Shown here piece after piece: positions 1-48,243 of a stretch of 64,000 bases of DNA. This DNA comes from Sphaerosporella brunnea (lineage: Eukaryota; Ascomycota; Pezizomycetes; Pezizales; Pyronemataceae). Location of the stretch: the NCBI GenBank assembly GCA_008704415.1, contig VXIS01000245.1, positions 1-64,000 of the forward strand, in the 5' to 3' direction. Made by a program: the position numbers and the translations under genes. Position 1 is the first letter of the stretch; each line of letters opens with the position of its first letter. Below the pieces are notes generated by a model. The model searched no databases, had not been told where the DNA came from, and worked only from the letters and a program-made list of their open reading frames with translations.

Positions 1-572
1 GCCGTGGAGGGACTGAACACCGGCGGTCGAATCGGTGTACTCCTTGGGATCTTAGGGGTTGCGGCGACCGTGGAAGAGGCTGCCGTAGAGATAACCGGAG
101 ACCGGATCGGTGTGCTCTTTGGAGTCGCCGAGGAGGTTGCCCTAGGGATGATCGGAGGCAAAATCGGAGTGACTTTGGGCGTCTTGGTAGTTGCCTTCGG
201 CGTCGCAGCAGCCGGAGAGGCTGAGGTAGAGATCACTGGAGGAAGAATCGGGGTGACCTTTGGAGTCGCGGCAGGCTTGGATGAACTGGAAGGTGCAGAG
301 GAGGTAGCCTTGGTGGTTGTGCTAGAAGAGGACGGCAGCACTGGAGGCCGGATCGGCGTGATTTTGCGTGGCCTGCCTGTGACGGGATCGATCTTGGGGT
401 TCTCCTTACTAGAGTCCTTAGGGATGAATTTCGGCACGGGAATTGGCGTGCGCTTGATGACGTTCGGTGGGTCGGATTTCGGCTCCGGCATGACGGCGGT
501 GGTGGTAATGGGGGTCGAATTGGCTTTCTGACGCGCGGTGGAATGAGGAGGAGGAGGAGGAGGAGGGACCAT
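1..572 (-). CDS. Partial copy of Ser/Pro/Thr-rich repeat protein (5' part only)
   Basis: This is the palindromic copy of the gene at 26294-29011. It starts at the ATG at 572, reads leftwards and is cut by the window edge after about 190 codons. The visible part contains the first TPK-TPI-PPV type repeats. It is identical to the right-arm copy as far as compared. Whether it is a real second locus depends on whether the palindrome is real. The function is unknown. Confidence 0.6.
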   Translation of the reverse strand, partial: MVPPPPPPPHSTARQKANSTPITTTAVMPEPKSDPPNVIKRTPIPVPKFIPKDSSKENPKIDPVTGRPRKITPIRPPVLPSSSSTTTKATSSAPSSSSKPAATPKVTPILPPVISTSASPAAATPKATTKTPKVTPILPPIIPRATSSATPKSTPIRSPVISTAASSTVAATPKIPRSTPIRPPVFSPST

Positions 573-762
573 TGGATCGCGGCCAATTGTCTTGACAGCG
601 ATCCAGCGCGAAGTTTCGGAGGCGGGAAATGCAGAGAGAATCGACGATTGGGCTCTGACGCTGCGGCTGCCAGGCTGATGATGAATGACAGCGATATCAA
701 GGGAGCTGGGAGCTAGCGAGGGAGATCGAGCGGACACGCGTCGACGCGATTCACGTCATCGA

Positions 763-862
763 GAGTCACTCGTTTCAATCATGGGGCATCACTCGGTAAA
801 TCATGTAGAGTCACTCGCTGGAATCATAGAGAGTCACTCGCTGGAATCATAGAGAGTCACTC
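763..862. promoter_or_regulatory. Cluster of GAGTCACTC sites (Gcn4/CpcA-like)
   Basis: Four perfect GAGTCACTC nonamers lie at about 763, 808, 831 and 854, with one degenerate copy near 785. The last three repeat every 23 bp and are followed by GAATCAT-like words. The complement contains TGACTC, the core of the Gcn4/CPC1 amino-acid control element. The cluster lies between the 3' end of the Stk19-like gene and the start of the repeat-protein gene, so it most likely belongs to the latter's promoter. The factor assignment is an inference from the core motif. Confidence 0.5.
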
Positions 863-897
863 AGCTTGTGTCACCTTGCTGCGATGCCGGTTCCCTT

Positions 898-2020
898 CTA
901 CGCCCTCAACCTCACTCCCAGCCCCGACCCCGCGACCTCGAACACTTCGCAGTCACCCCTCCCCAAGCTCTCCCCGACTACAGCTTCCCACCCGAGGCCC
1001 CTGAACTCCTTCCACCTTTTGATTCTTCCAACGGAGACACCCCCTTGACCTTCCCACCTTTCCTTGAGCGCCTTCTCCATCACGCCGCCCTTCGCTTTAT
1101 CCTTCCTGAGCATCTCAAGGAAATGCCACCCTGGCACTTCCCAGCAGTGCCAGCAATGGCCCCAGATTCGGCAATGAGACCACGTACTCGCCCGCCTCTT
1201 CCGCCGCTGCGGGGGACTTCTCGGTGATCAAGGTTCCATATCCCATCTGCGTGACTATCCCCTTCCCTCCCACCGCAGCTGCAGAGCCGGACGCAGCTAC
1301 CGCGCTCATACTGGTCAGAGTGCTCTTCTTTCCGGCCTCTTGCAGCCCCAAGGGACTCGCTGTGCTTTGCGTTGGCAGCGTCAAGAAACCAGCGTCCAGA
1401 AGCGTGCGCACTTCCTCCTTGGAGAAAAAGCAACCCGGGAGCTCGGCAGCAGTTGGATTTTTCTTCAGAACCTCGACCAACTTCTCTTTCACCTTCTCCG
1501 TCACGCTGGACTCTCTTATCAACGTGTACAGATATTCCGTGGGCACGACGCCACCGTCATCCCCGCGCTCCCGATTGGGCAGAAGTACCCGCCGCAGCTC
1601 GCCAGCTTCACACAGCCGCGCGATCTCCCGAGCAGTAGCGGTAGGGGCGTTTAGCAGCGCGTTGAGCAGTGCTACGGGGACGTACGGGGGGATCCTATCA
1701 CGGAACGCCGCCGTTTCGGCGACCTGCGCCGAAGAGAGACCCTTGAAGTTTTCGGGGAAGGGGGAGAACAGGTTCTTTTGCACGTGCGTTATCGCAGCCT
1801 GGACAGTTGTTGGGCGAGGACTGTGATGCTGCAGCAGTAAAACGCATGCTGGGATGTGGGCGCCTGTGTCTTGCAGCTTGCGTTGCCGGACGCTCGGGGT
1901 TGAGCGGCGAGTTGGTGGCGACGGGCGAGGCTTTGGGAGAGGGCCGGGGGCAGATTTGCTCCGTTTGAAGCTGATGCGCGAAGACGGCGCTCCTAGGGAG
2001 TACTGAGGACGGGAGGGCAT
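898..2020 (-). pseudogene. Stk19-like gene, left copy, broken by a 1-nt insertion
   Basis: This is the palindromic copy of the intact gene at 24847-25968. It starts at the ATG at 2020, just downstream of a poly-G/C tract. An extra C at about 1126-1127 shifts the frame, so translation leaves the family sequence after about 300 codons and stops near 1115. The right copy lacks this base and reads through to a 373-residue protein. This is the only difference I found in the outer 5.8 kb of the arms, so it is either a residual sequencing error or an early inactivating mutation. Confidence 0.7.
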
Positions 2021-2500
2021 GACGAGGAAACGGGGGGGGGGGGGCAGAGAGCACCAGCACCTCTTCGCTCTGACAGATATGCCGGAGAATGACTGTTGCG
2101 GAAACCAGCGAATCCGAACAGGAACCCTAACCCTGGCCTCCAATCCAACCCTAGCCCCCGCGCTCGCCTCGCACGACGACGTCACCCCCCGCTTTCACAA
2201 GCAACAAGAATCGAATTCCATGACGCCGGGATATATCATCATTATCATACATAATCGCAATCACAAGCATGCCGCCACCACCTGTCCCCGCCGGATCGCT
2301 TTTCTACTCCGCCTCCACCATCGCCTGTTCTTGACGATAATTCAACACCATCCGTTCGGTTCTAGAATTGTGGGCAGGTCACCCGCTCCGCATCCAACAT
2401 CCTCACGCTACATCGGCGTCAACACATCCTCCACCCGCACCGCCGCCAGTTCTCCCTCCCCAAGAACCCCCGGAATATCCACCTCCCGTGAGCCTTCAAA
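2021..2500. promoter_or_regulatory. Divergent promoter region between Stk19-like and DGAT2-like genes
   Basis: About 480 bp separate two divergently transcribed genes. The stretch contains a G10 tract at 2033-2042 close to the Stk19-like start, and two telomere-like CCCTAA units near 2125-2160 interrupted by other sequence. CT-rich stretches lead up to the DGAT2-like ATG at 2501. No TATA box or defined operator could be assigned. The mirror copy is at 24367-24846. Confidence 0.4.
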
Positions 2501-4376
2501 ATGCCCACCAGCAAGGCTGCAGGTGTTAACTTGCCCCCTGACGAATCGTGCCCTGCCACGCCTCCGAACCGAAACACAGGGGTATCCTACGCGCAAGCTG
2601 CCGTCCAGCCTCCCACATCAACTGCGCGCCATACCACTCCATCCGCTGAGCCCGCCATCAAAGCGCAATCCCCGCGAATGTCTTCCTCTCCATCGCAGAG
2701 CTACGCGAGTGCCGTAGAAAAGCCTCAACCTCCGCCGGAGGAACGCAGGCATCGCAGCAGCAGGGCCGAACGCAAGACATCTACCGACAGCGAAGCGCTG
2801 CAGGAGCAAGACAAGGCAGAGCGCCGGAAGAAACGTCGCGAACGAGAGGAGCGGGAAAGGACAGAATGGGAGAGATACGAGACTGAGAAGCACCGGCGCC
2901 GAGAGGAAAGACGGGCGCGCAACGAGCGCGAGCGTGAACGCCACGCGTCGGACGTGTCTGGCGCCTCGAGCCCCGCCGTGCCGTCGTCACCGCAAGTCTC
3001 TAAGAAGGAGCTCCACAAACCGACCAAAATAAGGGAAGACAGTGCCTCCGAAGGGAAACACGAGGGCGATGAGAAGCCGGCGCTCGTGTCTGCGGTCCAA
3101 AAGTGTGCTCCCATTCTCGTGCGGAAAAGCGATGTTCTAACAGATGCAGTGGCATTCGTTGCGCACCGCTCAACGTTCCTTTACCCCGACGGCTACAGAC
3201 CGCGGCGGTGCTTTGGCATACCCTAAGTATGAGCATATGCTTCAGCATCTTCTGGTTCGCCCTGGCCATTCCATTCACCTGGCCTGTACTGGTCCCGTAC
3301 CTTATCTACATATTTTTCTTCGCAAACAGTCACGCCGATGGATCGTCGCCATACAGGCGCTCTGAGTTTATGAGGAATCTGACGCTGTGGCGCCTCTACA
3401 CCGAGTACTTCCCAATGCGTCTCCATCGCACAGCGGAGCTCGATCCAAACAAGAATTACATCTTTGCCTACCATCCCCACGGTATCATCGGCCATGGTGC
3501 GTGGGGCAACTTTGTGACCGAGGCGACCGGTTTTAAGCATCTGTTTCCGGGTATTACAAACACGCTGCTCACTCTGGATGCCAACTTTCAGATTCCATTC
3601 AACCGAGAGTACCTATTGGCCATGGGATTGGCAAGCGTGTCGAAAAAGTCGTGCGAAGCATTACTGAGAGGTGAATACCTTAAAAAGCAGTTACTACAGA
3701 AGCAAAGGAACATCACGCAACCCACCACGTGGTTTGGCCGCAGACGGCATCAACATGTGGTCCCTGAAGGTGGCAGGGCCATCACTATCGTTGTTGGCGG
3801 TGCCAGAGAGAGTCTCGAGGCGCAACCGGGCACGATGAGGCTTGTGGTGAGGAAACGCAAGGGATTTTTGAAGCTGGCGATCCGTGAACGCGCCGGCGTA
3901 GTCCCGGTGCTGAGTTTTGGCGAGAATGGTACGTTTTGGCTCGCTGCTTGAGGAAGGAGGGTGCTGACAGCTGATAACTGGAGATCTCTACGAGCAAGTG
4001 GTCCCTGGTGAGGGCAGCTGGGCCCATAGGATGCAGATGGCTGTCAAAAAGGCTTTTGGCTTCACAATCCCTCTGATCCACGCGAGGGGTGTCTTCAACT
4101 ACGATGTTGGCTTGATGCCCTATCGTCACGAAGTCAACACCGTTGGTATGCATCCGCTTGCCGCTCTCCTTCCCCCCCCCAGCTAACATTTGGCGCGCAG
4201 TTGGAGCCCCGATCTTTCCCTTGAAACCGTGTGCGGGAGAACCGACAGACGAGGAAGTGGCAGAGTTTCAGAAACGCTATATCGAAGAACTGATGAAGCT
4301 GTGGGACGAGTGGAAGGATGTGTTCGCTAAAGATAGGCGGCCCGGGCCCGAGGGTGAGCTCCAGATTATCGAGTAG
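2501..4376 (+). CDS. DGAT2-family diacylglycerol acyltransferase (left copy)
   Basis: The family transfers an acyl chain from acyl-CoA to diacylglycerol (or a related acceptor) at the ER and lipid droplet. The model has four exons, 2501-3102, 3150-3928, 3984-4145 and 4201-4376, with three introns of 47-55 nt, and encodes 572 aa. Visible hallmarks are the RCAPLNVPLPRRLQT segment, a hydrophobic hairpin just after it, the catalytic HPHG motif (about residue 310), a RGGARE-like VGGARE segment, and the C-terminal PLKPC stretch with acidic helix. The first ~200 residues are a charged, low-complexity extension rich in Arg/Glu (predicted helix) that is longer than in most family members. Mono- or diacylglycerol preference cannot be read from the sequence. 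The mirror copy is at 22491-24366. Confidence 0.9.
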
Positions 4377-4689
4377 GGAGGGGATTGTTATATAGCCAAG
4401 ATTGTGTACTCTATACTTGCCGGTGTGTGTTTGCTTCCTTCGCAATTGTGATGAATTTTTAGTTGGGTGTCTGTTGGATGAGTAATTGGCAGAGCGCTTG
4501 CTTGTCGTTTGACGTAACCAGTAAAATACATTGAGTACTATCATCCGTTTTGACGCGAGCTGTTCTCTCCGTCCCTAGCTCGACTCCTTGCTAGAAAAGG
4601 GTTGTCTTGACTTACTCACCAACCAGTGCGGACCGAGTGATTGCCGGTGCAGCGGCCCTGAAGTGACCTCACAAACCTTTGGCGGACGG

Positions 4690-4790
4690 GTCAAGGGTAG
4701 GCTTAGATAATTATGGCCAGCCTGCAGCGGCATCTCAGGATATTAGTCGGTAGATTAATTCTCTACGTAAAACGGCCGCCTGCCCTCGTG
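4690..4790 (-). repeat. Inverted-repeat partner of 7735-7850
   Basis: The reverse complement of this stretch resembles 7735-7850. Shared blocks include GGCAGGCGGCCGTT, ATCTACCG, TATCCTGAGATGCCGC and a final CC-AT-A-C-AAGCC-AC-CC pattern. The two copies face each other across ~3 kb that contains the decayed cystathionine synthase-like gene. They could be the ends of a transposon or two members of a dispersed short repeat family. Confidence 0.5.
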
Positions 4791-4935
4791 AAAACAACCT
4801 TCCAGCTTTGCTCTTTTCCTTTGTCCACTGCACTCATTCTCTCCCGACGGCTACGTCCATTCATCTTGGGAAAGTGGGCAGTGGCCCCGGCCAAGGAGGC
4901 ACAGGCCCAGAGGATCTCTATTATTTGTACCTTGT

Positions 4936-4967
4936 GCCATGGCCGCAAGCGGCCGAATGCAATATGA
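4936..4967 (+). repeat. Copy of the GGCCGCAAGCGGCC MITE terminus
   Basis: The sequence GGCCGCAAGCGGCCGAATGC followed by AATATGA is shared with the right terminus of the element at 32662-33340. A matching second terminus was not found nearby, so this may be a solo end or a decayed copy. The palindromic mirror copy is at about 21900-21931. Confidence 0.6.
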
Positions 4968-5581
4968 AGAAAAGTTCTCCCGGCGGGATACAGCGGCTGC
5001 CCTGCAGACCTCCCCCGGCAATACTGTTTTTCTTTTGGTCCCCGGACGGCTTTGCGTTTCGCTTTTGCCCCCAGAGGCTGCGTAGGCATCGCGAGTGACT
5101 TGCAATGAAGCTCGCCACATCGTTGGCTGCGCATGGGAATGGACTTGACGACAGTGCCCGCCGCCCGACTTGACCGCTGCGGCCGCTATGTTTCTCATTC
5201 TCTGCCAGGTCTCAACGGGGTTTTTTTTTTATACCTAGGTGCATGGCTGGGCACTCTCTTTTTTTTTTTTTTTTTTTTCCGTGATTCGTTTTGTTTGTTC
5301 ACATGGCAGATATCGCGGTATACCAGGACCAAAAACAATAATGGGAAATTTGCCAAAGAGACCTCTATCTATCTAAGCGCCGCCACGCAATTTATAAATT
5401 TGCTCCGCCATGCAGAACGCTGAATAACTATCTTGAATCTTCATTTCTGGTGGCCGATTAAGAAAAACAAAAAAGGGGTGTTTGTGTTGCGTGACGAGCT
5501 GGCAGAGTGTGCAAAGGCCATACAAACTGCCTTCCGAAAAGCGCTCAACACCGCCGCCCAGCTCATAGCACCTTCAATTTT

Positions 5582-5582
<1 letters not shown>

Positions 5583-5621
<39 letters not shown>
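5583..5621 (+). repeat. (CT)n microsatellite followed by poly-T
   Basis: About 19 CT units followed by a run of about 15 T. The mirror copy on the right arm is a GA run preceded by poly-A (about 21230-21285). Confidence 0.95.
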
Positions 5622-5624
<3 letters not shown>

Positions 5625-6319
5625 TTTTTTTTTTTTTCTTCAGATTCTTCGGAGATCGGATTCCGTGTGTTTTTCTACTTTCCCGGCCAGCGGTCAATTT
5701 TCTGGACCAAATGGTGATTTTTTTGGTAAGGTGGTGAAGAGTGACTTTTCCCATTCTTTTTGTCCTATAGCAGAGTTTGGGCGATCATACAAGCGCGATG
5801 GCCCCCGGCCAGCCTAGGTCGTTGGATACGAACAATGTGCATAGCCCGCTTTTCAACTGATCAGCGACGGGTTGCAGCATCTGGATCAGACGCCAGTGTA
5901 GGCGATGCACGTGTCGCCGGCTCACCTACTACAGCGGACAATATGAGACCGCCCGCATAGGGGCACCGGCAAAACTCCAACATCAAGTCAGTCGACAGAT
6001 GGCAAAACCGAAATGGGAACCCCCAATCCCGGAGAGACGGAAGAACATGTTCGTTTCGCCGCTCTAACCATTCAACCTCACAGGGAGCTGATTGAGTCTC
6101 GGCGTTCTCGATACCCACCCCCCCCCCCCGGGGGCCAGCAACCATTGGATACGGAAAGAAAAGAACCCGGGGTTATGCATAGCTTGCGCGCAGGATATAT
6201 CCCCGGTCGGTACATCCCACATCCTTTGTCTCCCCTCCTCAGCTCAGCTCTCGGATTTTCCTGTTCTGCACCCGGATGGATCACCGTTGTCATGCGGACT
6301 GATGGTCGCGATCAACAGA

Positions 6320-7640
6320 TTCTGCACACCACCCGATAATCGCATCACTGTCAGACCTCTTCAGAAGAGGCGCCCGAGCCCGGCCAAGGACTGTGATCAA
6401 CCCCATGGTAAATGACCCCAAGGACCGGAATGGGAGGAAGGTAGCACCTGTCGCTCTGCAGGAAGAGATGTGGGTGGCTAGGGATAGAGCGAAGAGGGCT
6501 ATCAAGGAAAGGATATCCGAGTTGGCCAGTCATGGCGTTGGAGATGTCGGCCAGGTTGATATAAGTGATGTGTGCCTCTTCCCCTGTGGGATGAGTGCCC
6601 TGTTCAATACGCATCGTGCGTTGTTGGAAGCGATACCGCGGCAGGACCTCGCAGGGCAGACGGTCAGTTTTTGGTAAGTCTGCAGCACGCTGTTTCGAGG
6701 CACGGTTAGAGCTACTAGTAACGTCTCTACACCGCAGCTTCCCCTATGTCGGACACCCTGAAAATCCTCCAGCAGTTTAGCCAGGCTGGATGTGTCTCCT
6801 ACGGCCACGGCACGGTCGAGGGTCTAGACCAGCCCGAGAGGCTTCTTCAATCCGGGCGGCGTTTCGGAGGTCTTTTCATGGAAACGCCGAGCAACCCATT
6901 GCTCCAGTCACTAGACATAGCCCGGATGAATGGATTGGCAAGGACATGTGGGTTCGCGATTATCGTTGACGAAGCTATTGGAAACTTTGTCAATGTCGAT
7001 GTGGAGCGGGGAGCGCAATGTTACTGGTGGCAGGTACACACGTCATATCTTCTTTTTCGGCCAGCGTTTGCCGACCGCAGGCCTCAGCGTCGTGGTCAAC
7101 CCCAATTGGGACCGCACTACGCAGCACTGAAGCTCGCGATGGAAAGCCAATACGAGGGTAACTGGGATTGGGAGGACGCCGTTGGTGGTGATGGAATCAA
7201 ACAGCCGGGACTTTGCGTTCCGGGTGCAACGAATGAATGCGAATTGCGGAAGCAATTTGCGATCTTCTCGGCGCACATCCTCAGGGTAACTTCCCTCCCA
7301 TCCCCACATGGTTCAACCGATAGGCTTACAGCGCGCGAAGTATATTACCCCAAAATCAGCACAAAAAAGCATTTCTACGAAACCTTCCGCCGACCTGGTG
7401 GGAAGGGGGGCTACGGCTTTCAGCTTTCGTCCCAGCGATTGCCCGCCGGCATTTCTGGACGCCATCGATACGCTCAAGGGCCCTTCGTTGGGCACCAACT
7501 TCACGCTCACTTCGCCGTTCTGGCACATTACGGGGAACAGGAGTGGGCCGAGAGCTTTGGGGTCGGTATTCGCTCGATCCGCGTCAGTGTTGGCATGGAG
7601 GAGAGGCAGTTGGTTTGGGGTAGGTTTGGGGAGGCTTTGA
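6320..7640 (+). pseudogene. Decayed cystathionine gamma-synthase-like (Str2-type) PLP enzyme gene, left copy
   Basis: Conserved blocks of the fungal Str2/Cys-Met metabolism PLP enzyme family appear in changing frames. These are a CGMSA block (~6590), FPYV-TLKIL after an intron (~6735), a YGHGT-E-LD block, ETPSNPLLQS, VDEAIGNFVNV (6960-7000), an EVYYPK block (~7340), FYETFRRPGGKGGYG, GPSLGTNFTLTSPF and HYGEQEWAESFGV followed by IRVSVGMEE (to ~7620). No single frame covers the gene. An extra G near 7248 is shared by both palindrome arms, so at least that frameshift is probably real. The lysine-bearing PLP segment is not readable. In fungi Str2 joins cysteine and O-acetylhomoserine in transsulfuration. 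This copy cannot encode the full enzyme as written. Confidence 0.75.
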
Positions 7641-7734
7641 GGGCTGTGGATAGGGAGGCAGAGAGGCGGGAGCTGGAGGGGCAAGCGGTACAGATTGCTG
7701 GTGATGTATTGGGCGGTGTGCGAAAGCTGGAAGA

Positions 7735-7850
7735 CTGTATCCATCAAGGCAGGCGGCCGTTAGCGAAAGAGAGGGATATCGATCTACCGCCTTATATCCT
7801 GAGATGCCGCGGTAGGCAGAACCATCCAAGCCCACTACCCTTTTTAATTT
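7735..7850 (+). repeat. Inverted-repeat partner of 4690-4790
   Basis: See 4690-4790. Strongest matches are GGCAGGCGGCCGTT and TATCCTGAGATGCCGC. The mirror copy in the right arm is degraded by indels at about 19030-19160. Confidence 0.5.
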
Positions 7851-8046
7851 GTGGCCGGACCGCATGAGTATGGCAAAATGGAAACTGAGGGTGAGACGAG
7901 TACTTTGTGCCCGAGTTCGGACGACCCAAGTTGACCTCGCAACACTCGGCTCGAGACAGGGCTCTCCAGGAGGATATAACGGATTTTGCGGATAGGATGC
8001 GTGAGACTGCTGCCGACGCCACGCCGGCGTCCGCATACCTGCCCGC

Positions 8047-8402
8047 CTTCTTCTTCTTCTTCTTCTTCTTCTTCTTCTTCTTCTGCTTATGCTTCTTGAA
8101 CGTGTACAAGATGCGGGTAGGATAAGGACAAGCGCGATTCCTTAACATTTGTTGTTGTTGCTGCTGCTGCTGCTGCTGCTCGGATGCCCGCCGCAGCCAT
8201 TGCGATTATCGATGGGCGTGCGTTCGCCCACGGGAGATGTTCACCCGCGGCGAGTGTCACTGTTTGTGGACTGTGGACCAATCACCGCGCAAACGTAAAC
8301 GCGCCGGAGGAAGTATGTATCCAGTGAGTGGCTCCACTTTCACAAATCCGTGCATCTATCTGGTTATTACATTTCATGCACACCTCATCTCCACGGCAAG
8401 AA

Positions 8403-8443
<41 letters not shown>

Positions 8444-8444
8444 G
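8047..8444. repeat. (TTC)n and (AAC)n microsatellites around a short repeat-rich stretch
   Basis: About 12 TTC units at 8047-8083, a TTG/CTG run at 8148-8180, and about 14 AAC units at 8402-8444. The mirror copies in the right arm have different unit numbers, as expected for slippage or sequencing error. Confidence 0.9.
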
Positions 8445-8458
8445 CAACGTCCTATCAT

Positions 8459-8944
8459 CTACAGTTTATGCCAGCGAGCAAAGCACGTACCCGGCCCGTC
8501 ACGGTCCGGCTTGCAAAGCGGTATGGTCGGGTCGCTGCACGCGGCGCATTCCCAGCGCGTAAGCCGGGGCCGTCGCCGGCCGTTGCGTTCGCCCGCGCGG
8601 AAATCGCAGCGGCACACCACACACTCCTTCTGCTTCTGGCCGGCGATGTTGACGAGGCTGTGGCTGGCAGCAGCGGCAGCAGCCGCCGCGGCGTGAGCGG
8701 CGACGTGGCTGAGCGGGCGGCCGTGCGTGAAGTAGATGCTGGCCGTTTTGCGTTTGTATTTCTTCTTACGGGGCCGCCGGGGCTTCGAGGGGCCGCCGGC
8801 GGCAGCGTGGTCGCCGCCAACGTCGGCGGGTGCGGGATCGACGGTCTCGGCAGCGGTGGGCTCGCTGCAGCTTGGTGGCGGTGCTGGCTTGGGGTTTTTG
8901 GGGGATGAGATGGGATGCTCGAGAGCTCGTTTGGGGGTGGGCAT
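8459..8944 (-). CDS. Zinc-ribbon protein resembling the C-terminus of a piggyBac-type transposase
   Basis: The frame starts at the ATG at 8944 and encodes 161 aa. The N-terminal half is Pro/Ala-rich with a basic KPRRPRKKKYKRK stretch. The C-terminus has a cysteine-rich module: CVVC, then about 20 residues, WECAAC, then LC, CF and WH. This spacing resembles the terminal zinc-binding domain of fungal piggyBac-like transposases. No catalytic transposase domain is present, so it is a fragment or a domesticated domain. The right-arm counterpart (~17901-18390) is frameshifted in several places. The family call is from memory of motif layout only. Confidence 0.35.
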   Translation of the reverse strand: MPTPKRALEHPISSPKNPKPAPPPSCSEPTAAETVDPAPADVGGDHAAAGGPSKPRRPRKKKYKRKTASIYFTHGRPLSHVAAHAAAAAAAAASHSLVNIAGQKQKECVVCRCDFRAGERNGRRRPRLTRWECAACSDPTIPLCKPDRDGPGTCFARWHKL

Positions 8945-10016
8945 CTGGAATGGGAGAGGCACGGAGGCCGGGGGGGGGGGGCAGGAGCGGAGACAGAGCA
9001 GAGCAGGAGCAGACAACGGAGTAGGTGTGGTTGATGGAGCGAGCGCGAAAGGAGCGGCGGCGGCGGCTGCAAGTGCGGGCGGGTGGGGCTGAGCTGCTGA
9101 AAGGCCACAGTGGCGGCTACTCGGCGGCGGCGGCAAAAGTATTGGAACCACCGCAAACGTATAACTACATAATTACATAACTAACATAACTAGGTAGTAT
9201 CTATCTAACGCTAGTAACTACCACATCGACCCCCAAAATCCGTGACATCTCTTTTTATCTGCAGATATACCCGTAAATGCCAATATCCTCGTTCGCTGAG
9301 GCATGCAGAAAACATTTGAAATTGGAGCCATACTCTCTTTGAGAATTTGAATTCTCTTTGAACCAGATACTCGAGGCCATCTCTGTCAATGCAGCGCTGT
9401 AGGGCGCTATTTTCGGCTTCTCCTCCACCTTCTTCTTCACATTCATCCAGCTCTTCTTCATCTTCTAGGAAACCGGCTTCTTCCTCTTGGTCTTGACTTT
9501 CCATACTTCTGCTGGGGGGTTCGCTTGCGGGCAGCGGTGGCTGCGCCAAATCCTGTCTGTCAGGCGCAACCCGACATCCTCCTGAACCTCGCCATGAGCA
9601 CGAATTAGCCAAAGAACAGTGGTTACTGACGCTTCCTGGGTCGAATGTTTTCCAAGTGCATATATCTCTTATTATGTCGGCCCATTGCTGGATTTGGAGG
9701 CGGGTGGTGTGCAATTCGGGTTGCTGGTGATTGACTCTCCGCATCCTCAAACAGTGCGAACAGCAGTCAGAAAGTGGTGACGCAAAAATTACTCTTCCAC
9801 AGGCAGAAGCACGGGCATAAGCCGCTGGCAGCTGGTTCGAGCATTTTGGCAGCTGGTCCGAGCATTTCACGATGGAGTCAAGCAAGATTGCTCTTTTTTG
9901 AAAAACGTTCCGAGATTTTTCCTTTATCCAGAAACTATCGTGATAGCCTTTTGGAGCGCATCAAACATCAGGATACCCTCACAACGGTGCATCTGCTTTC
10001 GTTGTTTGTGGTGGTC
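8945..10016. other. Transposon-like debris without an assignable gene
   Basis: Short minus-strand frames (for example the 9211-9885 region, acidic EEE-rich middle, no ATG start) have no recognisable domain and are broken in the right arm. The stretch includes a TAACATAAC-rich segment at 9160-9215 and short tandem copies of an AGCTGGTTCGAGCATTTTGGC-like word at ~9830-9870. It is probably the decayed continuation of the transposase at 10017-10909. Confidence 0.4.
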
Positions 10017-10909: not shown

Positions 10910-11041
10910 TTCTAAAGCTTGAGGAAGGAAGCTTCAAGTTTTTCAGCGGTTTAAGGCTACCTACATAGCTCATCGCGGCCCCCCCACCTCGCCTTCTTCA
11001 TCCTCTCTAACTGATTCTTCCTTCGCTCCACCCGAATCGAA

Positions 11042-15805: not shown

Positions 15806-15937
15806 TTCGATTCGGGTGGAGCGAAGGAAGAATCAGTTAGAGAGGATGAAGAAGGCGAGGTGGGGGGGCCGCGATGAGCTATGTAGGTAGCCTTAAACCG
15901 CTGAAAAACTTGAAGCTTCCTTCCTCAAGCTTTAGAA

Positions 15938-18390: not shown

Positions 18391-19256
18391 GTAGATGATA
18401 GGGACGTGTGGTTGTGGTGTTGTTGTTGTTGTTGTTGTTGTTGTTTTTCTTGCGTGGAGATGAGGTGTGCATGAAATGTAATAACCAGATATGATGCACG
18501 GACATTTGTGAAGTGGAGCCACTCAACTGGATACATACTTCCTCCGGCGCGTTACGTTGCGCGAGTGTATGGTCCCCAGTCCACCAAACTATGGTGACAC
18601 TCGCCGCGGCCGTGAACATCTTCCGGTGCGAAACGCCACGCCATCGATAATGTCGCACTGGCTGACGGCGCGTCATCCGAGCAGCCGCAGCAGCAGCAGC
18701 AACAACAACAAATGTTAATGATCGCGCTATGTCTTATCCTACCGCACTCTTGTACACGTTGCAAGATAGCATAAGCAGAAGAAGAAGAAGAAGAAGAAGA
18801 GAAGAAGAAGAAGAAGCGCGGCAAAGGGTATGCGGACGCCGGACGCGTGGCGTCGGCGGACAGCAGTCTCACGCATCTCTATCCGCAAAATCCGTTATAT
18901 CCTCTGGAGAGCCCTGTTGTGTCTCGAGCGCGACGACTGTTGCGAGGTCAACTTGGGTCGTCCGGAACTCAGGGCACAAAGTACTCGTCCTCACCCTCAG
19001 TTTCATTTATGCCATACTCAGGCGTCCGGCCCACAATTAAAAGGTAGTGGGCATTTGGATGGTTGCTGCACGACATACCGCGGCATTCTCGAGGATATAA
19101 GCGGTAGATCGATATCCGCTCTTCGTCGCGCTAACAGGCCGCCTGCCTTGATGGATACAGTCTTCAAGCTTTCGCACACCGCCCAATACATCACCAGCAA
19201 TCTGTACCGCTTGCCCCTCCAGCTCCCGCCTCTCTGCCTCCCTATCACAGCCCTCA

Positions 19257-20560
19257 AAGCCTCCCCAAACTACCCCAACAACTGCCTCTCCTCCATGCCA
19301 ACACTGACGCGGACCGAGCGAATACCGGACCCAAAGCTCTCGGCCCACTCCTGTTCCCAGTAATGTGCCAGACACGGCGAAGTGCGAAGTGAGCGTGAAG
19401 TGGTGGCCCAACGAGGGCCTTGAGCGTATCGATGGCGTCCAGAAATGCGGCGGGCAATCGCTGGGACGAAAGCTGAAAGCCGTAGCCCCCCCTTCCCACC
19501 AGGTCGGCGGAAGGTTTCGTAGAAATGCTTTTTTGTGCTGATTTTGGGGTAATATACTTCGCGCGCTGTAAGCCTATCGGTTGAAACATGTGGGGATGGG
19601 AGGGAAGTTACCCTGAGGATGTGCGCCGAGAAGATCGCAAATTGCTTCCGCAATTCGCATTCATTCGTTGCACCCGGAACGCAAAAGTCCGGCTGTTGAT
19701 TCCATCACCACCAAACGGCGTCCTCCATACCAGTTACCCTTCGTATTGGCTTTCCATCGCGAGCTTCAGTGCTGCGTAGTGCGGTCCCAATTGGGGTTGA
19801 CACACGACGTGAGGCCTGCCGGTCGGCAAACGCTGGCCGAAAAGAAGATATGACGTCGTTGTACCTGCCACCAGTAACATTGCGCTCCCCGCTCCACATC
19901 GACATGACAAAGTTTCCAATAGCTTCGTCAACGATAATCGCGAACCCACATGTCCTTGCCAATCCATCATCCGGGCTATGTCTAGTGATGGAGCAATGGG
20001 TTGCTCGGCGTTTCCATGAAAAGACCTCCGAAAACGCCGCCCGGATGAAGAAGCTCTCGGGCTGGTCTAGACCCTCGACCGTGCCGTGGCGCCGTAGGAG
20101 ACACATCCAGCCTGGCTAAACTGTGGAGGATTTCAGGGTGTCGACATAGGGGAAGCTGCGGTGTAGAGACGTTACTAGTAGCTCTAACCGTGCCTCGAAA
20201 CAGCGTGCTGCAGACTTACCAAAAATGGACGTCTGCCCTGCGAGGTCCTGCCGCGGTATCGCTTCCAACACGCACGATGCGTATTGAACAGGGCATCATC
20301 CACAGGGGAAGAGGCACACATCACTTATATCAACCTGGCCGACATCTCCAACGCCATGACTGGCCAACTCGGATATCCTTTCCTTGATAGCCCTCTTCGC
20401 TCATCCTAGCCACCCACATCTCTTCCTGCAGAGCGACAGGTGCTACCTTCCTCCCATTCGGTCCTTGGGGTCATTTACCATGGGGTGATCACAGTCCTTG
20501 GCCGGGCTCGGGAGCCTCTTCTGAAGAGGTCTGACAGTGATGCGATTATCGGGTGGTGTG
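19257..20560 (-). pseudogene. Decayed Str2-like PLP enzyme gene, right copy
   Basis: Counterpart of 6320-7640, with approximate ends. Recognisable blocks include VDEAIGNFV (~19930), NVTGGRY, YYPK with STKKHFYETF (~19540), LVGRGGYGF and AIDTLKA. It has more frameshifts than the left copy. In places this copy keeps the better frame, so combining both arms would remove some, but not all, of the breaks. The inserted G near 7248 is present here too. Confidence 0.65.
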
Positions 20561-21229
20561 CAGAATCTGTTGATCGCGACCATCAGTCCGCATGACAACG
20601 GTGATCCATCCGGTGCAGAACAGGAAAATCCGAGAGCTGAGCGAGGAGGGGAGACAAAGGATGTGGGATGTACGACGGGGATATATCCTGCGCGCAAGCT
20701 ATGCATAACCCCGGGTTCTTTTCTTCCGTATCCAATGGTTGCTGGCCCCCGTGGGTACGAGAACGCCGAGAGACTCATCAGCTCCCTGTGAGGTTGAATG
20801 GTTAGAGCGGCGAAACGAACATGTTCTCCGTCTTCCGGGATTGGGGGGTTCCATTTCGGTTTTGCCATCGTGTCGACTGACTTGATGTTGGAGTTTTGCC
20901 GGTGCCCCTATGCGGGCGGTCTCATATTGTCCGCTGTAGTAGGTGAGCCGGCGACACGTGCATCGCCTACACTGGCGTCTGATCCAGATGCTGCAACCCG
21001 TCGCTGATCAGTTGAAAAGCTGGCTATGCACATTGTTCGTATCCAACGACCTAGGCTGGCCGGGGCCATCGCGCTTGTATGATCGCCCAAACTCTGCTAT
21101 AGGACAAAAAGAATGGGAAAAGTCACTCTTCACCACCTTACCAAAAAAATCACCATTTGGTCCAGAAAATTGACCGCTGGCCGGGAAAGTAGAAAAACAC
21201 ACGGAATCCGATCTCCGAAGAATCTGAAG

Positions 21230-21242
21230 AAAAAAAAAAAAA

Positions 21243-21285
<43 letters not shown>

Positions 21286-21931
21286 AAAATTGAAGGTGCT
21301 ATGAGCTGGGCGGCGGTGTTGAGCGCTTTTCGGAAGGCAGTTTGTATGGCCTTTGCACACTCTGCCAGCTCGTCACGCAACACAAACACCCCTTTTTTGT
21401 TTTTCTTAATCGGCCACCAGAAATGAAGATTCAAGATAGTTATTCAGCGTTCTGCATGGCGGAGCAAATTTATAAATTGCGTGGCGGCGCTTAGATAGAT
21501 AGAGGTCTCTTTGGCAAATTTCCCATTATTGTTTTTGGTCCTGGTATACCGCGATATCTGCCATGTGAACAAACAAAACGAATCACGGAAAAAAAAAAAA
21601 AAAAAAAAGAGAGTGCCCAGCCATGCACCTAGGTATAAAAAAAAAACCCCGTTGAGACCTGGCAGAGAATGAGAAACATAGCGGCCGCAGCGGTCAAGTC
21701 GGGCGGCGGGCACTGTCGTCAAGTCCATTCCCATGCGCAGCCAACGATGTGGCGAGCTTCATTGCAAGTCACTCGCGATGCCTACGCAGCCTCTGGGGGC
21801 AAAAGCGAAACGCAAAGCCGTCCGGGGACCAAAAGAAAAACAGTATTGCCGGGGGAGGTCTGCAGGGCAGCCGCTGTATCCCGCCGGGAGAACTTTTCTT
21901 CATATTGCATTCGGCCGCTTGCGGCCATGGC
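21230..21931. repeat. Mirror copies of (CT)n, poly-T and the MITE terminus
   Basis: Poly-A at 21230-21244 and a GA run at about 21247-21285, a poly-A run near 21590-21608, and the GGCCGC MITE end at 21900-21931. All match the left arm at 4936-5640. Confidence 0.85.
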
Positions 21932-22490
21932 ACAAGGTACAAATAATAGAGATCCTCTGGGCCTGTGCCTCCTTGGCCGGGGCCACTGCCCACTTTCCCA
22001 AGATGAATGGACGTAGCCGTCGGGAGAGAATGAGTGCAGTGGACAAAGGAAAAGAGCAAAGCTGGAAGGTTGTTTTCACGAGGGCAGGCGGCCGTTTTAC
22101 GTAGAGAATTAATCTACCGACTAATATCCTGAGATGCCGCTGCAGGCTGGCCATAATTATCTAAGCCTACCCTTGACCCGTCCGCCAAAGGTTTGTGAGG
22201 TCACTTCAGGGCCGCTGCACCGGCAATCACTCGGTCCGCACTGGTTGGTGAGTAAGTCAAGACAACCCTTTTCTAGCAAGGAGTCGAGCTAGGGACGGAG
22301 AGAACAGCTCGCGTCAAAACGGATGATAGTACTCAATGTATTTTACTGGTTACGTCAAACGACAAGCAAGCGCTCTGCCAATTACTCATCCAACAGACAC
22401 CCAACTAAAAATTCATCACAATTGCGAAGGAAGCAAACACACACCGGCAAGTATAGAGTACACAATCTTGGCTATATAACAATCCCCTCC

Positions 22491-24366
22491 CTACTCGATA
22501 ATCTGGAGCTCACCCTCGGGCCCGGGCCGCCTATCTTTAGCGAACACATCCTTCCACTCGTCCCACAGCTTCATCAGTTCTTCGATATAGCGTTTCTGAA
22601 ACTCTGCCACTTCCTCGTCTGTCGGTTCTCCCGCACACGGTTTCAAGGGAAAGATCGGGGCTCCAACTGCGCGCCAAATGTTAGCTGGGGGGGGGAAGGA
22701 GAGCGGCAAGCGGATGCATACCAACGGTGTTGACTTCGTGACGATAGGGCATCAAGCCAACATCGTAGTTGAAGACACCCCTCGCGTGGATCAGAGGGAT
22801 TGTGAAGCCAAAAGCCTTTTTGACAGCCATCTGCATCCTATGGGCCCAGCTGCCCTCACCAGGGACCACTTGCTCGTAGAGATCTCCAGTTATCAGCTGT
22901 CAGCACCCTCCTTCCTCAAGCAGCGAGCCAAAACGTACCATTCTCGCCAAAACTCAGCACCGGGACTACGCCGGCGCGTTCACGGATCGCCAGCTTCAAA
23001 AATCCCTTGCGTTTCCTCACCACAAGCCTCATCGTGCCCGGTTGCGCCTCGAGACTCTCTCTGGCACCGCCAACAACGATAGTGATGGCCCTGCCACCTT
23101 CAGGGACCACATGTTGATGCCGTCTGCGGCCAAACCACGTGGTGGGTTGCGTGATGTTCCTTTGCTTCTGTAGTAACTGCTTTTTAAGGTATTCACCTCT
23201 CAGTAATGCTTCGCACGACTTTTTCGACACGCTTGCCAATCCCATGGCCAATAGGTACTCTCGGTTGAATGGAATCTGAAAGTTGGCATCCAGAGTGAGC
23301 AGCGTGTTTGTAATACCCGGAAACAGATGCTTAAAACCGGTCGCCTCGGTCACAAAGTTGCCCCACGCACCATGGCCGATGATACCGTGGGGATGGTAGG
23401 CAAAGATGTAATTCTTGTTTGGATCGAGCTCCGCTGTGCGATGGAGACGCATTGGGAAGTACTCGGTGTAGAGGCGCCACAGCGTCAGATTCCTCATAAA
23501 CTCAGAGCGCCTGTATGGCGACGATCCATCGGCGTGACTGTTTGCGAAGAAAAATATGTAGATAAGGTACGGGACCAGTACAGGCCAGGTGAATGGAATG
23601 GCCAGGGCGAACCAGAAGATGCTGAAGCATATGCTCATACTTAGGGTATGCCAAAGCACCGCCGCGGTCTGTAGCCGTCGGGGTAAAGGAACGTTGAGCG
23701 GTGCGCAACGAATGCCACTGCATCTGTTAGAACATCGCTTTTCCGCACGAGAATGGGAGCACACTTTTGGACCGCAGACACGAGCGCCGGCTTCTCATCG
23801 CCCTCGTGTTTCCCTTCGGAGGCACTGTCTTCCCTTATTTTGGTCGGTTTGTGGAGCTCCTTCTTAGAGACTTGCGGTGACGACGGCACGGCGGGGCTCG
23901 AGGCGCCAGACACGTCCGACGCGTGGCGTTCACGCTCGCGCTCGTTGCGCGCCCGTCTTTCCTCTCGGCGCCGGTGCTTCTCAGTCTCGTATCTCTCCCA
24001 TTCTGTCCTTTCCCGCTCCTCTCGTTCGCGACGTTTCTTCCGGCGCTCTGCCTTGTCTTGCTCCTGCAGCGCTTCGCTGTCGGTAGATGTCTTGCGTTCG
24101 GCCCTGCTGCTGCGATGCCTGCGTTCCTCCGGCGGAGGTTGAGGCTTTTCTACGGCACTCGCGTAGCTCTGCGATGGAGAGGAAGACATTCGCGGGGATT
24201 GCGCTTTGATGGCGGGCTCAGCGGATGGAGTGGTATGGCGCGCAGTTGATGTGGGAGGCTGGACGGCAGCTTGCGCGTAGGATACCCCTGTGTTTCGGTT
24301 CGGAGGCGTGGCAGGGCACGATTCGTCAGGGGGCAAGTTAACACCTGCAGCCTTGCTGGTGGGCAT
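22491..24366 (-). CDS. DGAT2-family diacylglycerol acyltransferase (right copy)
   Basis: Mirror copy of 2501-4376, identical as far as compared. Exons are 24366-23765, 23717-22939, 22883-22722 and 22666-22491, encoding 572 aa. This copy lies on the arm that continues into unique chromosome, so if the palindrome is an artefact this is the true locus. Here the neighbour order Stk19-like gene (divergent), then repeat protein, is intact. Confidence 0.9.
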
Positions 24367-24846
24367 TTTGAAGGCTCACGGGAGGTGGATATTCCGGGGG
24401 TTCTTGGGGAGGGAGAACTGGCGGCGGTGCGGGTGGAGGATGTGTTGACGCCGATGTAGCGTGAGGATGTTGGATGCGGAGCGGGTGACCTGCCCACAAT
24501 TCTAGAACCGAACGGATGGTGTTGAATTATCGTCAAGAACAGGCGATGGTGGAGGCGGAGTAGAAAAGCGATCCGGCGGGGACAGGTGGTGGCGGCATGC
24601 TTGTGATTGCGATTATGTATGATAATGATGATATATCCCGGCGTCATGGAATTCGATTCTTGTTGCTTGTGAAAGCGGGGGGTGACGTCGTCGTGCGAGG
24701 CGAGCGCGGGGGCTAGGGTTGGATTGGAGGCCAGGGTTAGGGTTCCTGTTCGGATTCGCTGGTTTCCGCAACAGTCATTCTCCGGCATATCTGTCAGAGC
24801 GAAGAGGTGCTGGTGCTCTCTGCCCCCCCCCCCCCGTTTCCTCGTC

Positions 24847-25968
24847 ATGCCCTCCCGTCCTCAGTACTCCCTAGGAGCGCCGTCTTCGCGCATCAGCTTC
24901 AAACGGAGCAAATCTGCCCCCGGCCCTCTCCCAAAGCCTCGCCCGTCGCCACCAACTCGCCGCTCAACCCCGAGCGTCCGGCAACGCAAGCTGCAAGACA
25001 CAGGCGCCCACATCCCAGCATGCGTTTTACTGCTGCAGCATCACAGTCCTCGCCCAACAACTGTCCAGGCTGCGATAACGCACGTGCAAAAGAACCTGTT
25101 CTCCCCCTTCCCCGAAAACTTCAAGGGTCTCTCTTCGGCGCAGGTCGCCGAAACGGCGGCGTTCCGTGATAGGATCCCCCCGTACGTCCCCGTAGCACTG
25201 CTCAACGCGCTGCTAAACGCCCCTACCGCTACTGCTCGGGAGATCGCGCGGCTGTGTGAAGCTGGCGAGCTGCGGCGGGTACTTCTGCCCAATCGGGAGC
25301 GCGGGGATGACGGTGGCGTCGTGCCCACGGAATATCTGTACACGTTGATAAGAGAGTCCAGCGTGACGGAGAAGGTGAAAGAGAAGTTGGTCGAGGTTCT
25401 GAAGAAAAATCCAACTGCTGCCGAGCTCCCGGGTTGCTTTTTCTCCAAGGAGGAAGTGCGCACGCTTCTGGACGCTGGTTTCTTGACGCTGCCAACGCAA
25501 AGCACAGCGAGTCCCTTGGGGCTGCAAGAGGCCGGAAAGAAGAGCACTCTGACCAGTATGAGCGCGGTAGCTGCGTCCGGCTCTGCAGCTGCGGTGGGAG
25601 GGAAGGGGATAGTCACGCAGATGGGATATGGAACCTTGATCACCGAGAAGTCCCCCGCAGCGGCGGAAGAGGCGGGCGAGTACGTGGTCTCATTGCCGAA
25701 TCTGGGGCCATTGCTGGCACTGCTGGGAAGTGCCAGGGTGCATTTCCTTGAGATGCTCAGGAAGGATAAAGCGAAGGGCGGCGTGATGGAGAAGGCGCTC
25801 AAGGAAAGGTGGGAAGGTCAAGGGGGTGTCTCCGTTGGAAGAATCAAAAGGTGGAAGGAGTTCAGGGGCCTCGGGTGGGAAGCTGTAGTCGGGGAGAGCT
25901 TGGGGAGGGGTGACTGCGAAGTGTTCGAGGTCGCGGGGTCGGGGCTGGGAGTGAGGTTGAGGGCGTAG
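24847..25968 (+). CDS. Stk19-like winged-helix protein (intact copy)
   Basis: A single exon from the ATG at 24847, 13 nt after a C-rich tract, encodes 373 aa. The first ~70 residues are basic and Pro/Ser-rich (SFKRSKSAP, RQRK). The rest reads as a helical fold with segments such as VALLNALLNAPTATAREIARLCEAGELRRVLLP and a C-terminal IKRWKEFRGLGWEAV. The ARLCEAGELRRVLLP layout resembles the Stk19 family, DNA-binding winged-helix proteins of transcription-coupled repair. The assignment is by motif recall. Longer upstream reading to 24682 lacks an ATG. Divergent from the DGAT2-like gene across 480 bp. Confidence 0.55.
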   Translation: MPSRPQYSLGAPSSRISFKRSKSAPGPLPKPRPSPPTRRSTPSVRQRKLQDTGAHIPACVLLLQHHSPRPTTVQAAITHVQKNLFSPFPENFKGLSSAQVAETAAFRDRIPPYVPVALLNALLNAPTATAREIARLCEAGELRRVLLPNRERGDDGGVVPTEYLYTLIRESSVTEKVKEKLVEVLKKNPTAAELPGCFFSKEEVRTLLDAGFLTLPTQSTASPLGLQEAGKKSTLTSMSAVAASGSAAAVGGKGIVTQMGYGTLITEKSPAAAEEAGEYVVSLPNLGPLLALLGSARVHFLEMLRKDKAKGGVMEKALKERWEGQGGVSVGRIKRWKEFRGLGWEAVVGESLGRGDCEVFEVAGSGLGVRLRA

Positions 25969-26003
25969 AAGGGAACCGGCATCGCAGCAAGGTGACACAA
26001 GCT

Positions 26004-26103
26004 GAGTGACTCTCTATGATTCCAGCGAGTGACTCTCTATGATTCCAGCGAGTGACTCTACATGATTTACCGAGTGATGCCCCATGATTGAAACGAGTGA
26101 CTC
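26004..26103. promoter_or_regulatory. GAGTGACTC cluster upstream of the repeat-protein gene (right copy)
   Basis: Mirror of 763-862. Four GAGTGACTC sites and one degenerate copy lie 190-290 bp upstream of the ATG at 26294 and just past the stop of the Stk19-like gene. TGACTC is the core of the Gcn4/CPC1 amino-acid-control element. Tandem 23-bp spacing suggests local duplication of one site. Confidence 0.5.
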
Positions 26104-26293
26104 TCGATGACGTGAATCGCGTCGACGCGTGTCCGCTCGATCTCCCTCGCTAGCTCCCAGCTCCCTTGATATCGCTGTCATTCATCATCAGCCTGGCAGC
26201 CGCAGCGTCAGAGCCCAATCGTCGATTCTCTCTGCATTTCCCGCCTCCGAAACTTCGCGCTGGATCGCTGTCAAGACAATTGGCCGCGATCCA

Positions 26294-29011
26294 ATGGTCC
26301 CTCCTCCTCCTCCTCCTCCTCATTCCACCGCGCGTCAGAAAGCCAATTCGACCCCCATTACCACCACCGCCGTCATGCCGGAGCCGAAATCCGACCCACC
26401 GAACGTCATCAAGCGCACGCCAATTCCCGTGCCGAAATTCATCCCTAAGGACTCTAGTAAGGAGAACCCCAAGATCGATCCCGTCACAGGCAGGCCACGC
26501 AAAATCACGCCGATCCGGCCTCCAGTGCTGCCGTCCTCTTCTAGCACAACCACCAAGGCTACCTCCTCTGCACCTTCCAGTTCATCCAAGCCTGCCGCGA
26601 CTCCAAAGGTCACCCCGATTCTTCCTCCAGTGATCTCTACCTCAGCCTCTCCGGCTGCTGCGACGCCGAAGGCAACTACCAAGACGCCCAAAGTCACTCC
26701 GATTTTGCCTCCGATCATCCCTAGGGCAACCTCCTCGGCGACTCCAAAGAGCACACCGATCCGGTCTCCGGTTATCTCTACGGCAGCCTCTTCCACGGTC
26801 GCCGCAACCCCTAAGATCCCAAGGAGTACACCGATTCGACCGCCGGTGTTCAGTCCCTCCACGGCTGCCACTACCCCCAAGGCATCCCCCAAAACTATTG
26901 CCTCCACATCCTCCAGGGCTACCACAAAGAACACGCCGATTCTGCCTCCGGTGATCTCTTCAACGGCCTCATCAAACACTGCTGCAACTCCAAAGACCAC
27001 CTCCTCTGTACCATCCAGTTCCTCCAAAGCCACTCCGGCTCTTGGTTCCACGCAACCTCCACCTTCGAGCTCGAACACGGCCAACCATTCGAGAAACAAA
27101 GCCAAAGCGGGCGAGTCTAAGAGTTCAACTACACAATCAAAGCAGGAGGAGGCTGCCATCAAGGAAAAGGCGTCCAGGCCTTCCAAGAAGAAGAACCAAG
27201 TTACGACCAACGCCGTCCAAGCTACTGCCGCCGAAAAGCGCCCATTTTCATCGGCGGAAGCCAAAATCGATGGCGGCTTGGAACCTACCCCCAAAAAGCG
27301 GAAGATCACCTCATCGCCGCGTGTTCCACAGAAAGAAGCGCCTAAAAAAGACACCTTGACTCCCAGTAAGGACCCTCCAAAACGCCCCCCTCCCTCCAAT
27401 GTCGCCAAACCAGCCCCTAAAACGGTCAGAAAGCCTCCGGCAGAAAGAAGCGAAATCGAGGCCGCCGAAGCAGTTGGAAAAAGCAAAAAGAAGAAGGTAA
27501 CAGTGACAAGAGCTGTTGAAGAAAAGACCGTGAAGGAAACGGGAGAGCATTCAAGGGCAATCAATGGAAGGGGAAAAGCTGCAGAAGAGCTTTCAGAAGC
27601 TGGGGGATTCCACCGCCTTCCACGTGAAGTCGAAATAGATGCTTTCCCACAAACATCAAGTTTCAATGTTTTAATCCACACAGCTGGGTCATCCGCAACA
27701 CCCGCCGCGTTCTCCAATTCATCGGTGCCAATCACGTCCATCACCCAAATTCCCGCTACGCCTCCGGCCCATCAGGCCTCTGGCAGTTTTTACGGGTCGT
27801 CAGCGTTATCCAATGGCAAAACTGTTATGCCAGATAGACAGGAAGAAAGTGGAGCTGGGCTGGAAATGGTCCCAGAATCACCGCTTGGATCTCCAACTGT
27901 ACTCGCACTATTACCACCTGTCTCGTCAACTCTACCCAAGCCACTTCCCGATGCGCCCTCACCATCGCCAGAACCATCCGCCAGCGACCGAAATCGCTGG
28001 TCACGCTCTCCCATTCTACCCACACTTCTTCCAGAGCCCCCTTCATTCTCGCAAGGGCAACCGCAAATCTCTGCCCGTACTCGGAAGAAGCAACGCCCAC
28101 CTTCTTCGGCGCAACCACAATTCCCTGCCCGCAAGCATAATGCAACAGCTCGCTCTCAGCCACCCACAGAGTCACCGCCCGAGGCTACCACCACCAGCGG
28201 AGGAACATGGCCCGGCATCATCAATCTCCTTTGGAATAGACTCCCAACCTTCCGAAGCACCACAGAACAACCATCGTCCAAACCGGTTACTGCAACGCCA
28301 ACCACTGCTCTCCCTTCCCCCAGCTGCGAGTCTCCCATCAAAAACCAGCTGGGTGTTGCTCTCACTACACCGGCGGCGCCACCAGCAGATGATTTTTCAA
28401 CATCGCACTCCAGTTCCAGTTCTCCAATCGCCACTCCTCACGATGCCTCTCCCAAAGCAATATCACCTGCGGTGCCCGCTCCCCTCTCCTCATCTGGACT
28501 AACTCCGCCTCCAACACTCCACATAGTCTTCAAAACACAAATCCTTTCCACCTCCTCCTTGCCCTTGCCTACAGAAAGCATAATCTCAGTTCTGGGCGCC
28601 TACCGCACCCAAACCTCAGCTCTAATATCTGCGCAATTGCACCATCTGCAGCATGAACAGCAAAGCGACAAGGCCTCCACGGCCTCCCTACAACGGCTTC
28701 TTCCCGATGGAACTGCACCCGCCGCATCCACAGAGTTTATCAAGCTTCTTCTAAGCAGTGTTGATGAGGCGGTGGGCGAGATGGGTGACGAGGTGTGGTT
28801 CGTGTTTACAAATGATGGAGAGGTGACGGCGCTTACCGGGGTGTACGCGCATGCGGAGATGGCGGAGAAGGCGGTGGCCGCGAAGGTGCGAGAGCTGGGG
28901 GGAAGGGTGTTGGATAGGGGGTATAGGTTGGGATGTTGTTATGGGGTTGTGGAGCTGGAGGGCGGTCGCGGGTTGAGGAATGTTTTCACGAAGAAGGTTG
29001 GGGTTGAGTAG
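26294..29011 (+). CDS. Ser/Pro/Thr-rich protein with TPK-TPI-PPV repeats and a conserved-looking C-terminal domain
   Basis: A single long frame encodes 905 aa from the ATG at 26294. The frame is open upstream to 26129, but only from a GTG. Residues ~60-270 hold about eight imperfect repeats of the form TPK-x-TPI-x-PP-V/I separated by Ser/Ala/Thr linkers. A Lys-rich bipartite stretch follows (PSKKKNQ; PKKRKIT at ~390; KSKKKKV), which suggests nuclear location. The last ~150 residues look globular: ESIISVLGAYRTQTSALI, then EVWFVFTNDGEVTALTGVY and a closing GCCYGVVELEGGRG. I do not recognise the family. The palindrome boundary at 26865 falls inside this gene. Confidence 0.75.
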   Translation: MVPPPPPPPHSTARQKANSTPITTTAVMPEPKSDPPNVIKRTPIPVPKFIPKDSSKENPKIDPVTGRPRKITPIRPPVLPSSSSTTTKATSSAPSSSSKPAATPKVTPILPPVISTSASPAAATPKATTKTPKVTPILPPIIPRATSSATPKSTPIRSPVISTAASSTVAATPKIPRSTPIRPPVFSPSTAATTPKASPKTIASTSSRATTKNTPILPPVISSTASSNTAATPKTTSSVPSSSSKATPALGSTQPPPSSSNTANHSRNKAKAGESKSSTTQSKQEEAAIKEKASRPSKKKNQVTTNAVQATAAEKRPFSSAEAKIDGGLEPTPKKRKITSSPRVPQKEAPKKDTLTPSKDPPKRPPPSNVAKPAPKTVRKPPAERSEIEAAEAVGKSKKKKVTVTRAVEEKTVKETGEHSRAINGRGKAAEELSEAGGFHRLPREVEIDAFPQTSSFNVLIHTAGSSATPAAFSNSSVPITSITQIPATPPAHQASGSFYGSSALSNGKTVMPDRQEESGAGLEMVPESPLGSPTVLALLPPVSSTLPKPLPDAPSPSPEPSASDRNRWSRSPILPTLLPEPPSFSQGQPQISARTRKKQRPPSSAQPQFPARKHNATARSQPPTESPPEATTTSGGTWPGIINLLWNRLPTFRSTTEQPSSKPVTATPTTALPSPSCESPIKNQLGVALTTPAAPPADDFSTSHSSSSSPIATPHDASPKAISPAVPAPLSSSGLTPPPTLHIVFKTQILSTSSLPLPTESIISVLGAYRTQTSALISAQLHHLQHEQQSDKASTASLQRLLPDGTAPAASTEFIKLLLSSVDEAVGEMGDEVWFVFTNDGEVTALTGVYAHAEMAEKAVAAKVRELGGRVLDRGYRLGCCYGVVELEGGRGLRNVFTKKVGVE

Positions 29012-45986: not shown

Positions 45987-46207
45987 GGTGGGTGTGTTGC
46001 TGTTGCTGTGGGTGTGGTGAAGGGGTTTTAGTAGTGAGGGGGGGTTACCCGGTTGGTGGGGTTCTGGGTCATCGGGTGTCACTCTCGCACTCTCTCTCTC
46101 TCGGGCCGATGTCTACATACTCTACCCTACCTAATCAATCCCCCATGATGATGCAAACTACTCAAATCTCAAAAAAAAAACGCATAAACTGTATTTTCCC
46201 CATCTAT

Positions 46208-48210: not shown

Positions 48211-48243
<33 letters not shown>

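Follow-up and report, generated by a model that had tools for sequence, protein, structure and literature searches.

Introduction

Genuine large palindromes arise from fold-back and breakage-fusion-bridge events, consist of large inverted copies with a short spacer or none, and are backed by molecules and by copy number. Palindromes are also generated technically, by an artefact type that is already known and published. According to the parts of the BIGMAC paper used here (PMC5084376), reads in which the adaptor has been skipped occur commonly; an assembler that meets one gets stuck and hands the palindrome on to the contig. Long palindromes are taken there as a sign of mis-assembly. The Pacasus report (PMC6218980), in its sections on chimeras, describes whole-genome-amplified PacBio libraries whose reads double back on themselves and so bring inverted duplications into assemblies; 0.5% of the reads of its unamplified control were palindromic as well. 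Two further papers touch the subject less closely: in the portions that concern us, PMC8495745 treats chimeric reads but not palindromic ones, and PMC7782737 merely cites FinisherSC.

The assembly of Sphaerosporella brunnea, an ascomycete of the Pezizales, analysed here (GCA_008704415.1) comprises 640 contigs and 50,565,648 bases, and so differs from the one presented in the genome paper (PMC6908789; 872 contigs, 51.6 Mb), of which the sections cited here specify a low-input PacBio protocol with 10-kb libraries and a draft made with Falcon 0.3.0, finisherSC 2.1 and Arrow. The genome and transcriptome data are listed there under SRP214822 and SRP215074. The window, by which we mean the whole 64,000-base stretch that was analysed, is positions 1-64000 of contig C163 (74,858 bases); window base 1 is contig base 1, a point that a preliminary description of this DNA had proposed to check. 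The contig carries a palindrome whose signs, as read from assembled sequence alone, are technical, unlike those of genuine fold-back or breakage-fusion-bridge palindromes. It is like the contigs described in the BIGMAC text consulted (PMC5084376) in being a long palindrome in a PacBio contig that stops at the contig end, and unlike them in having a noisy section inside both arms. It is like the chimeras of the Pacasus sections cited (PMC6218980) in the turning back that it suggests and in the resulting inverted duplication, and unlike those libraries in that the sections of PMC6908789 cited above make no mention of amplification.

Results

A palindrome of 26.9 kb ends the contig

Positions 1-26865 of the window form an inverted repeat of 26.9 kb, its outermost bases being 1 and 26865. 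Chance would not come near producing an inverted repeat so long. Its parts, in window coordinates, are these:

13415-13432, no strand: palindrome centre, without spacer, GGGGGCCAA meeting TTGGCCCCC
1-13423, minus strand: left arm, judged an artificial mirror copy, its first base being contig base 1
13424-26865, plus strand: right arm, which runs on into the remaining contig, judged the chromosomal copy
1-5805, no strand: left arm, outer clean part, differing from 21062-26865 by one 1-base indel
5806-9931, no strand: left arm, noisy middle, 92.6% identical to the right arm, with mainly 1-2 base indels
9932-16915, no strand: inner clean part, a perfect palindrome of 6,984 bases
16916-21061, no strand: right arm, noisy middle
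26129-29011, plus strand: 960-aa open reading frame (ORF) over the outer palindrome edge, its mirror copy cut at the contig start

The preliminary description presented the first 13.4 kb as the reverse complement of the next 13.4 kb. This is right in outline: the outer 5.8 kb (1-5805 and 21062-26865) have the single indel as their sole difference and nothing distinguishes the inner 3.5 kb (9932-13423 and 13424-16915), but the 4.1-kb middles (5806-9931 and 16916-21061) reach only 92.6% identity by alignment column. That the arms meet without a spacer at the junction of CCAA and TTGG is borne out: to either side of it 3,492 bases are perfectly complementary, and the spacer is 0. The centre falls between 13423 and 13424, not at the 13424 originally given, since the left arm ends with 13423. 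Two further claims hold, that the window edge cuts a gene complete only on the right and that flanking sequence is attached to the right arm: the 960-aa ORF (26129-29011) spans the outer edge at 26865, which leaves its left copy truncated where the contig begins, and the left arm stops at contig base 1. A genuine palindrome would be expected to have flanks beyond both arms; here the left arm has none within the contig.

One explanation of such a structure is a real inverted duplication, formed by fold-back, by breakage-fusion or at a hairpin-capped broken end, with a second flank that went unplaced in the assembly. In its favour are the exact centre and the cleanness of the arms in their inner and outer stretches, and an inverted copy that continued identically past the arms could likewise end a contig. 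The 640 contigs were also searched for a second contig that carries the chromosome onward from the centre, and this possibility was rejected: the 251 bases around the centre matched C163 only, and searches with the inner arm, noisy middle and outer arm returned from elsewhere only shorter or diverged pieces among the candidates scored (40 in each of two of these searches), with no other full-length arm match among these candidates. The possibility that the palindrome marks a chromosome end was also rejected: among the matches listed, exact TTAGGG arrays open contigs C244 and C363 and occur in other places too, and the palindrome has no TTAGGG run of two or more units, the sole such run in C163 being at 36611, outside it. 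This lack of a telomere-like repeat counts against the real duplication too.

The middles of the arms differ as raw reads do

Small indels dominate the errors of raw PacBio reads. A first MAFFT alignment of the two arm middles gave 329 substitutions and 226 gap bases; because it scored neighbouring indels as substitutions, an affine-gap alignment was used instead. This yielded 3,956 matching columns, 44 substitutions (7 transitions, 37 transversions) and 214 indel events, that is, 4.86 indel events for each substitution, with transitions and transversions in a ratio of 0.19. Nearly all of the indel events (205 of 214) are of 1-2 bases, and 117 of the 214 are a single base beside an identical base.

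As controls we compared the arms with diverged repeat loci of this genome (8 loci against two arm parts, 16 comparisons), and used the three of the 16 alignments that exceeded 250 columns. These gave 0.27, 0.29 and 0.52 indels per substitution and transition/transversion ratios of 1.29, 1.76 and 1.78. The differences between the arms thus lack the look of biological divergence expected of a genuine palindrome, and ordinary divergence of the middles is ruled out by the indel-to-substitution ratio (4.86 vs 0.27-0.52). A real duplication leaves this indel-rich middle unexplained.

Each arm carries its own damage to a gene

The noisy middle contains a cystathionine gamma-synthase-like gene (PF01053, 24.5 bits, under the cut-off of 27), for which homologues were found. 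Its coding matches are placed as follows:

6435-7678, plus strand: left-arm matches, broken between frames
19246-20760, minus strand: right-arm matches, with in-frame stops and other damage

Both arms were compared with four fungal homologues. The left-arm gene matched two of the four in two frames; the right-arm gene matched in a single frame, scored lower and had in-frame stops. Certain blocks survive in one arm only, that around ETPSNPLL in the left and that around FPYVDTLK in the right, and each arm therefore has errors of its own. Breaks that differ in this way between copies look as they would in unpolished PacBio sequence; a real duplication does not account for gene damage in both arms.

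A gene cut at the centre was considered as well. The 297-aa ORF at 12486-13379 aligns over residues 20-289 to residues 70-332 of a 338-aa metagenome protein and therefore bears no sign of truncation at the centre.

Palindromes stand at the ends of four other contigs

In repeat-family searches a palindrome leaves a recognizable signature, a pair of equally scoring matches that lie on opposite strands within the same contig. Four match lists, with 40 candidates scored for each, covered at least 122 contigs besides C163, and a further search added C158, C496 and C614. Equal-score mirrored pairs flagged C162, C556, C267 and C614, and these four contigs were fetched; opposite-strand pairs of unequal score (for example in C13, C78, C99 and C606) were left out of the survey. 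All four flagged contigs proved to have a long palindrome that runs exactly to the contig end, which is base 1 in C162, C556 and C614 and the last base in C267.

In C162 the arms are 1-8175 and 8678-16877, with 0 substitutions and 6 indel events by affine alignment, and are separated by a spacer of 502 bases, the first 432 of which are G and T only. In C556 (353,563 bases) base 1 mirrors 35464 across a spacer of 57, giving arms of about 17.7 kb, of which the outer 1.16 kb and inner 3.7 kb were checked on each side. The palindrome of C267 (51,739 bases) occupies 44559-51739, up to the last base, with a spacer of 11; that of C614 (158,155 bases) occupies 1-6471, with a loop, judged by eye, of about 3 bases, and was checked over 1-700 and 1800-4660.

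Several features expected of an artefact thus come together: a long near-perfect palindrome in a long-read contig, recurrence at unrelated loci of one assembly (four of four flagged contigs), and a mirror copy that stops at the contig end in C163, C162, C556, C267 and C614. With the window's own included, five of the five palindromes found, the other four from equal-score mirrored pairs, exactly reach a contig end. Palindromes at separate loci that stop with their contigs and have spacers of 0 to 502 bases, partly junk-like, are what would be expected from fold-back reads that halt the assembler. A real duplication would call for five separate events, all stopping exactly at contig ends, and would leave the G/T-only stretch of the C162 spacer without explanation; we regard it as very improbable. 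Nor do we give much credence to the related idea that the five terminal-palindrome contigs mark chromosome or broken ends of this strain that are truly fold-back, hairpin-like inverted duplications, which is most unlikely.

Discussion

The palindrome as a probable fold-back artefact

The 26.9-kb palindrome is very probably a fold-back artefact of sequencing and assembly, originating in the PacBio library or read chemistry and carried into the draft; we judge the right arm to be the single copy of the chromosomal sequence. This reading draws on the position at the contig end, the raw-read-like differences and frame damage within the observed structure, the PacBio/Falcon/finisherSC pipeline and the four further terminal palindromes. 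Of the two origins put forward in the preliminary description, a missed adapter or template switch is the one favoured by the contig end, the raw-read-like indels, the pipeline and the other palindromes; a fold-back or hairpin-capped amplification event has nothing in its favour beyond the palindrome itself and retains only a slight probability.

In such a scheme one or more molecules would be read out on one strand and, no adapter being recognised, back on the other, the turn being caused by a skipped or missing SMRTbell adapter or by a snap-back hairpin at the fragment end. We infer the fold-back read from its presumed product. The assembler would extend the contig with it and then, being unable to go past the fold-back, stop, so that the contig would end inside the mirror copy; the true chromosome beyond 13424 would then be DNA not joined in this contig. 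The noisy 4.1-kb parts may have had little or no read consensus, being for instance raw sequence added by finisherSC or sequence left unpolished by Arrow. FinisherSC makes use of raw reads.

Some observations run counter to a fold-back artefact. Both arms look well polished in their outer and inner parts; arm lengths of 13.4 kb, and of about 17.7 kb in C556, exceed the nominal 10-kb library; and no inverted repeat was found in the first 10 kb of any of the five neighbouring contigs C159, C160, C161, C164 and C165.

No adapter remnant was recognised at three centres, where the best local scores were 7-11 out of 45 against a presumed adapter sequence, scores that stand without a shuffled control. 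Such a remnant concerns the missed-adapter form only, as a snap-back turn would leave none. Because none is seen at the window's centre, a snap-back hairpin or amplification chimera is about as likely as a missed adapter, these being forms of one artefact.

A more particular proposal is that strands switched during amplification or fill-in of low-input DNA, with no adapter having been missed. The low-input protocol named in the methods portion of PMC6908789 would suit this, as would the observation, in the sections of the Pacasus report cited (PMC6218980), that many palindromic chimeras often come from amplification; the lack of an adapter remnant at the centre suits it too, and the short spacers of C267 (11 bases) and C614 (about 3, by eye) fit snap-back priming. 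The spacers of C556 (57 bases) and C162 (502 bases) fit it less well, and the silence on amplification in the cited sections of PMC6908789 also weighs against it. We hold strand switching to be possible though rather unlikely, with a probability that is a share of that given to the artefact and not an addition to it.

Consequences for use of the assembly

For users of the assembly these results amount to a data-quality warning. The contig shows the genes of the palindrome in duplicate, and false frameshifts affect about 4.1 kb in either arm. Terminal palindromes also occur in at least four further contigs of this draft, a sign of an assembly-wide defect. Studies of gene duplication or inverted repeats that draw on this assembly should mask palindromic contig ends. 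Fold-back ends that recur in a fungus would be a surprising finding if the palindromes were real; the evidence points the opposite way.

Other elements of the contig

Several repeated elements were noticed in passing. Within the inner arm, window positions 10034-10948 belong to a repeat family with copies of 82-89% identity in several other contigs, and are probably a transposable element. A short element at 36061-36425 has 103-base inverted ends that are 90% complementary, looks like a MITE-type element and has at least 94 matches across at least 37 contigs. Past the window, C163 71672-74308 and C140 72559-75196 share 2.6 kb at 99.8% identity in opposite orientation; with inverted ends of about 380 bases that are 89% alike, this stretch looks like a recent copy of a DNA transposon.

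Two ORFs of the window outside the palindrome also have recognizable domains. That at 43104-44942 (612 aa) has C2H2 zinc fingers, and that at 46208-47761, which a Sphaerosporella brunnea protein matches at 98% over 33% of the query, has an HhH-GPD DNA glycosylase domain; its near relatives go by the name of methyl-CpG-binding domain protein 4 or of DNA glycosylase.
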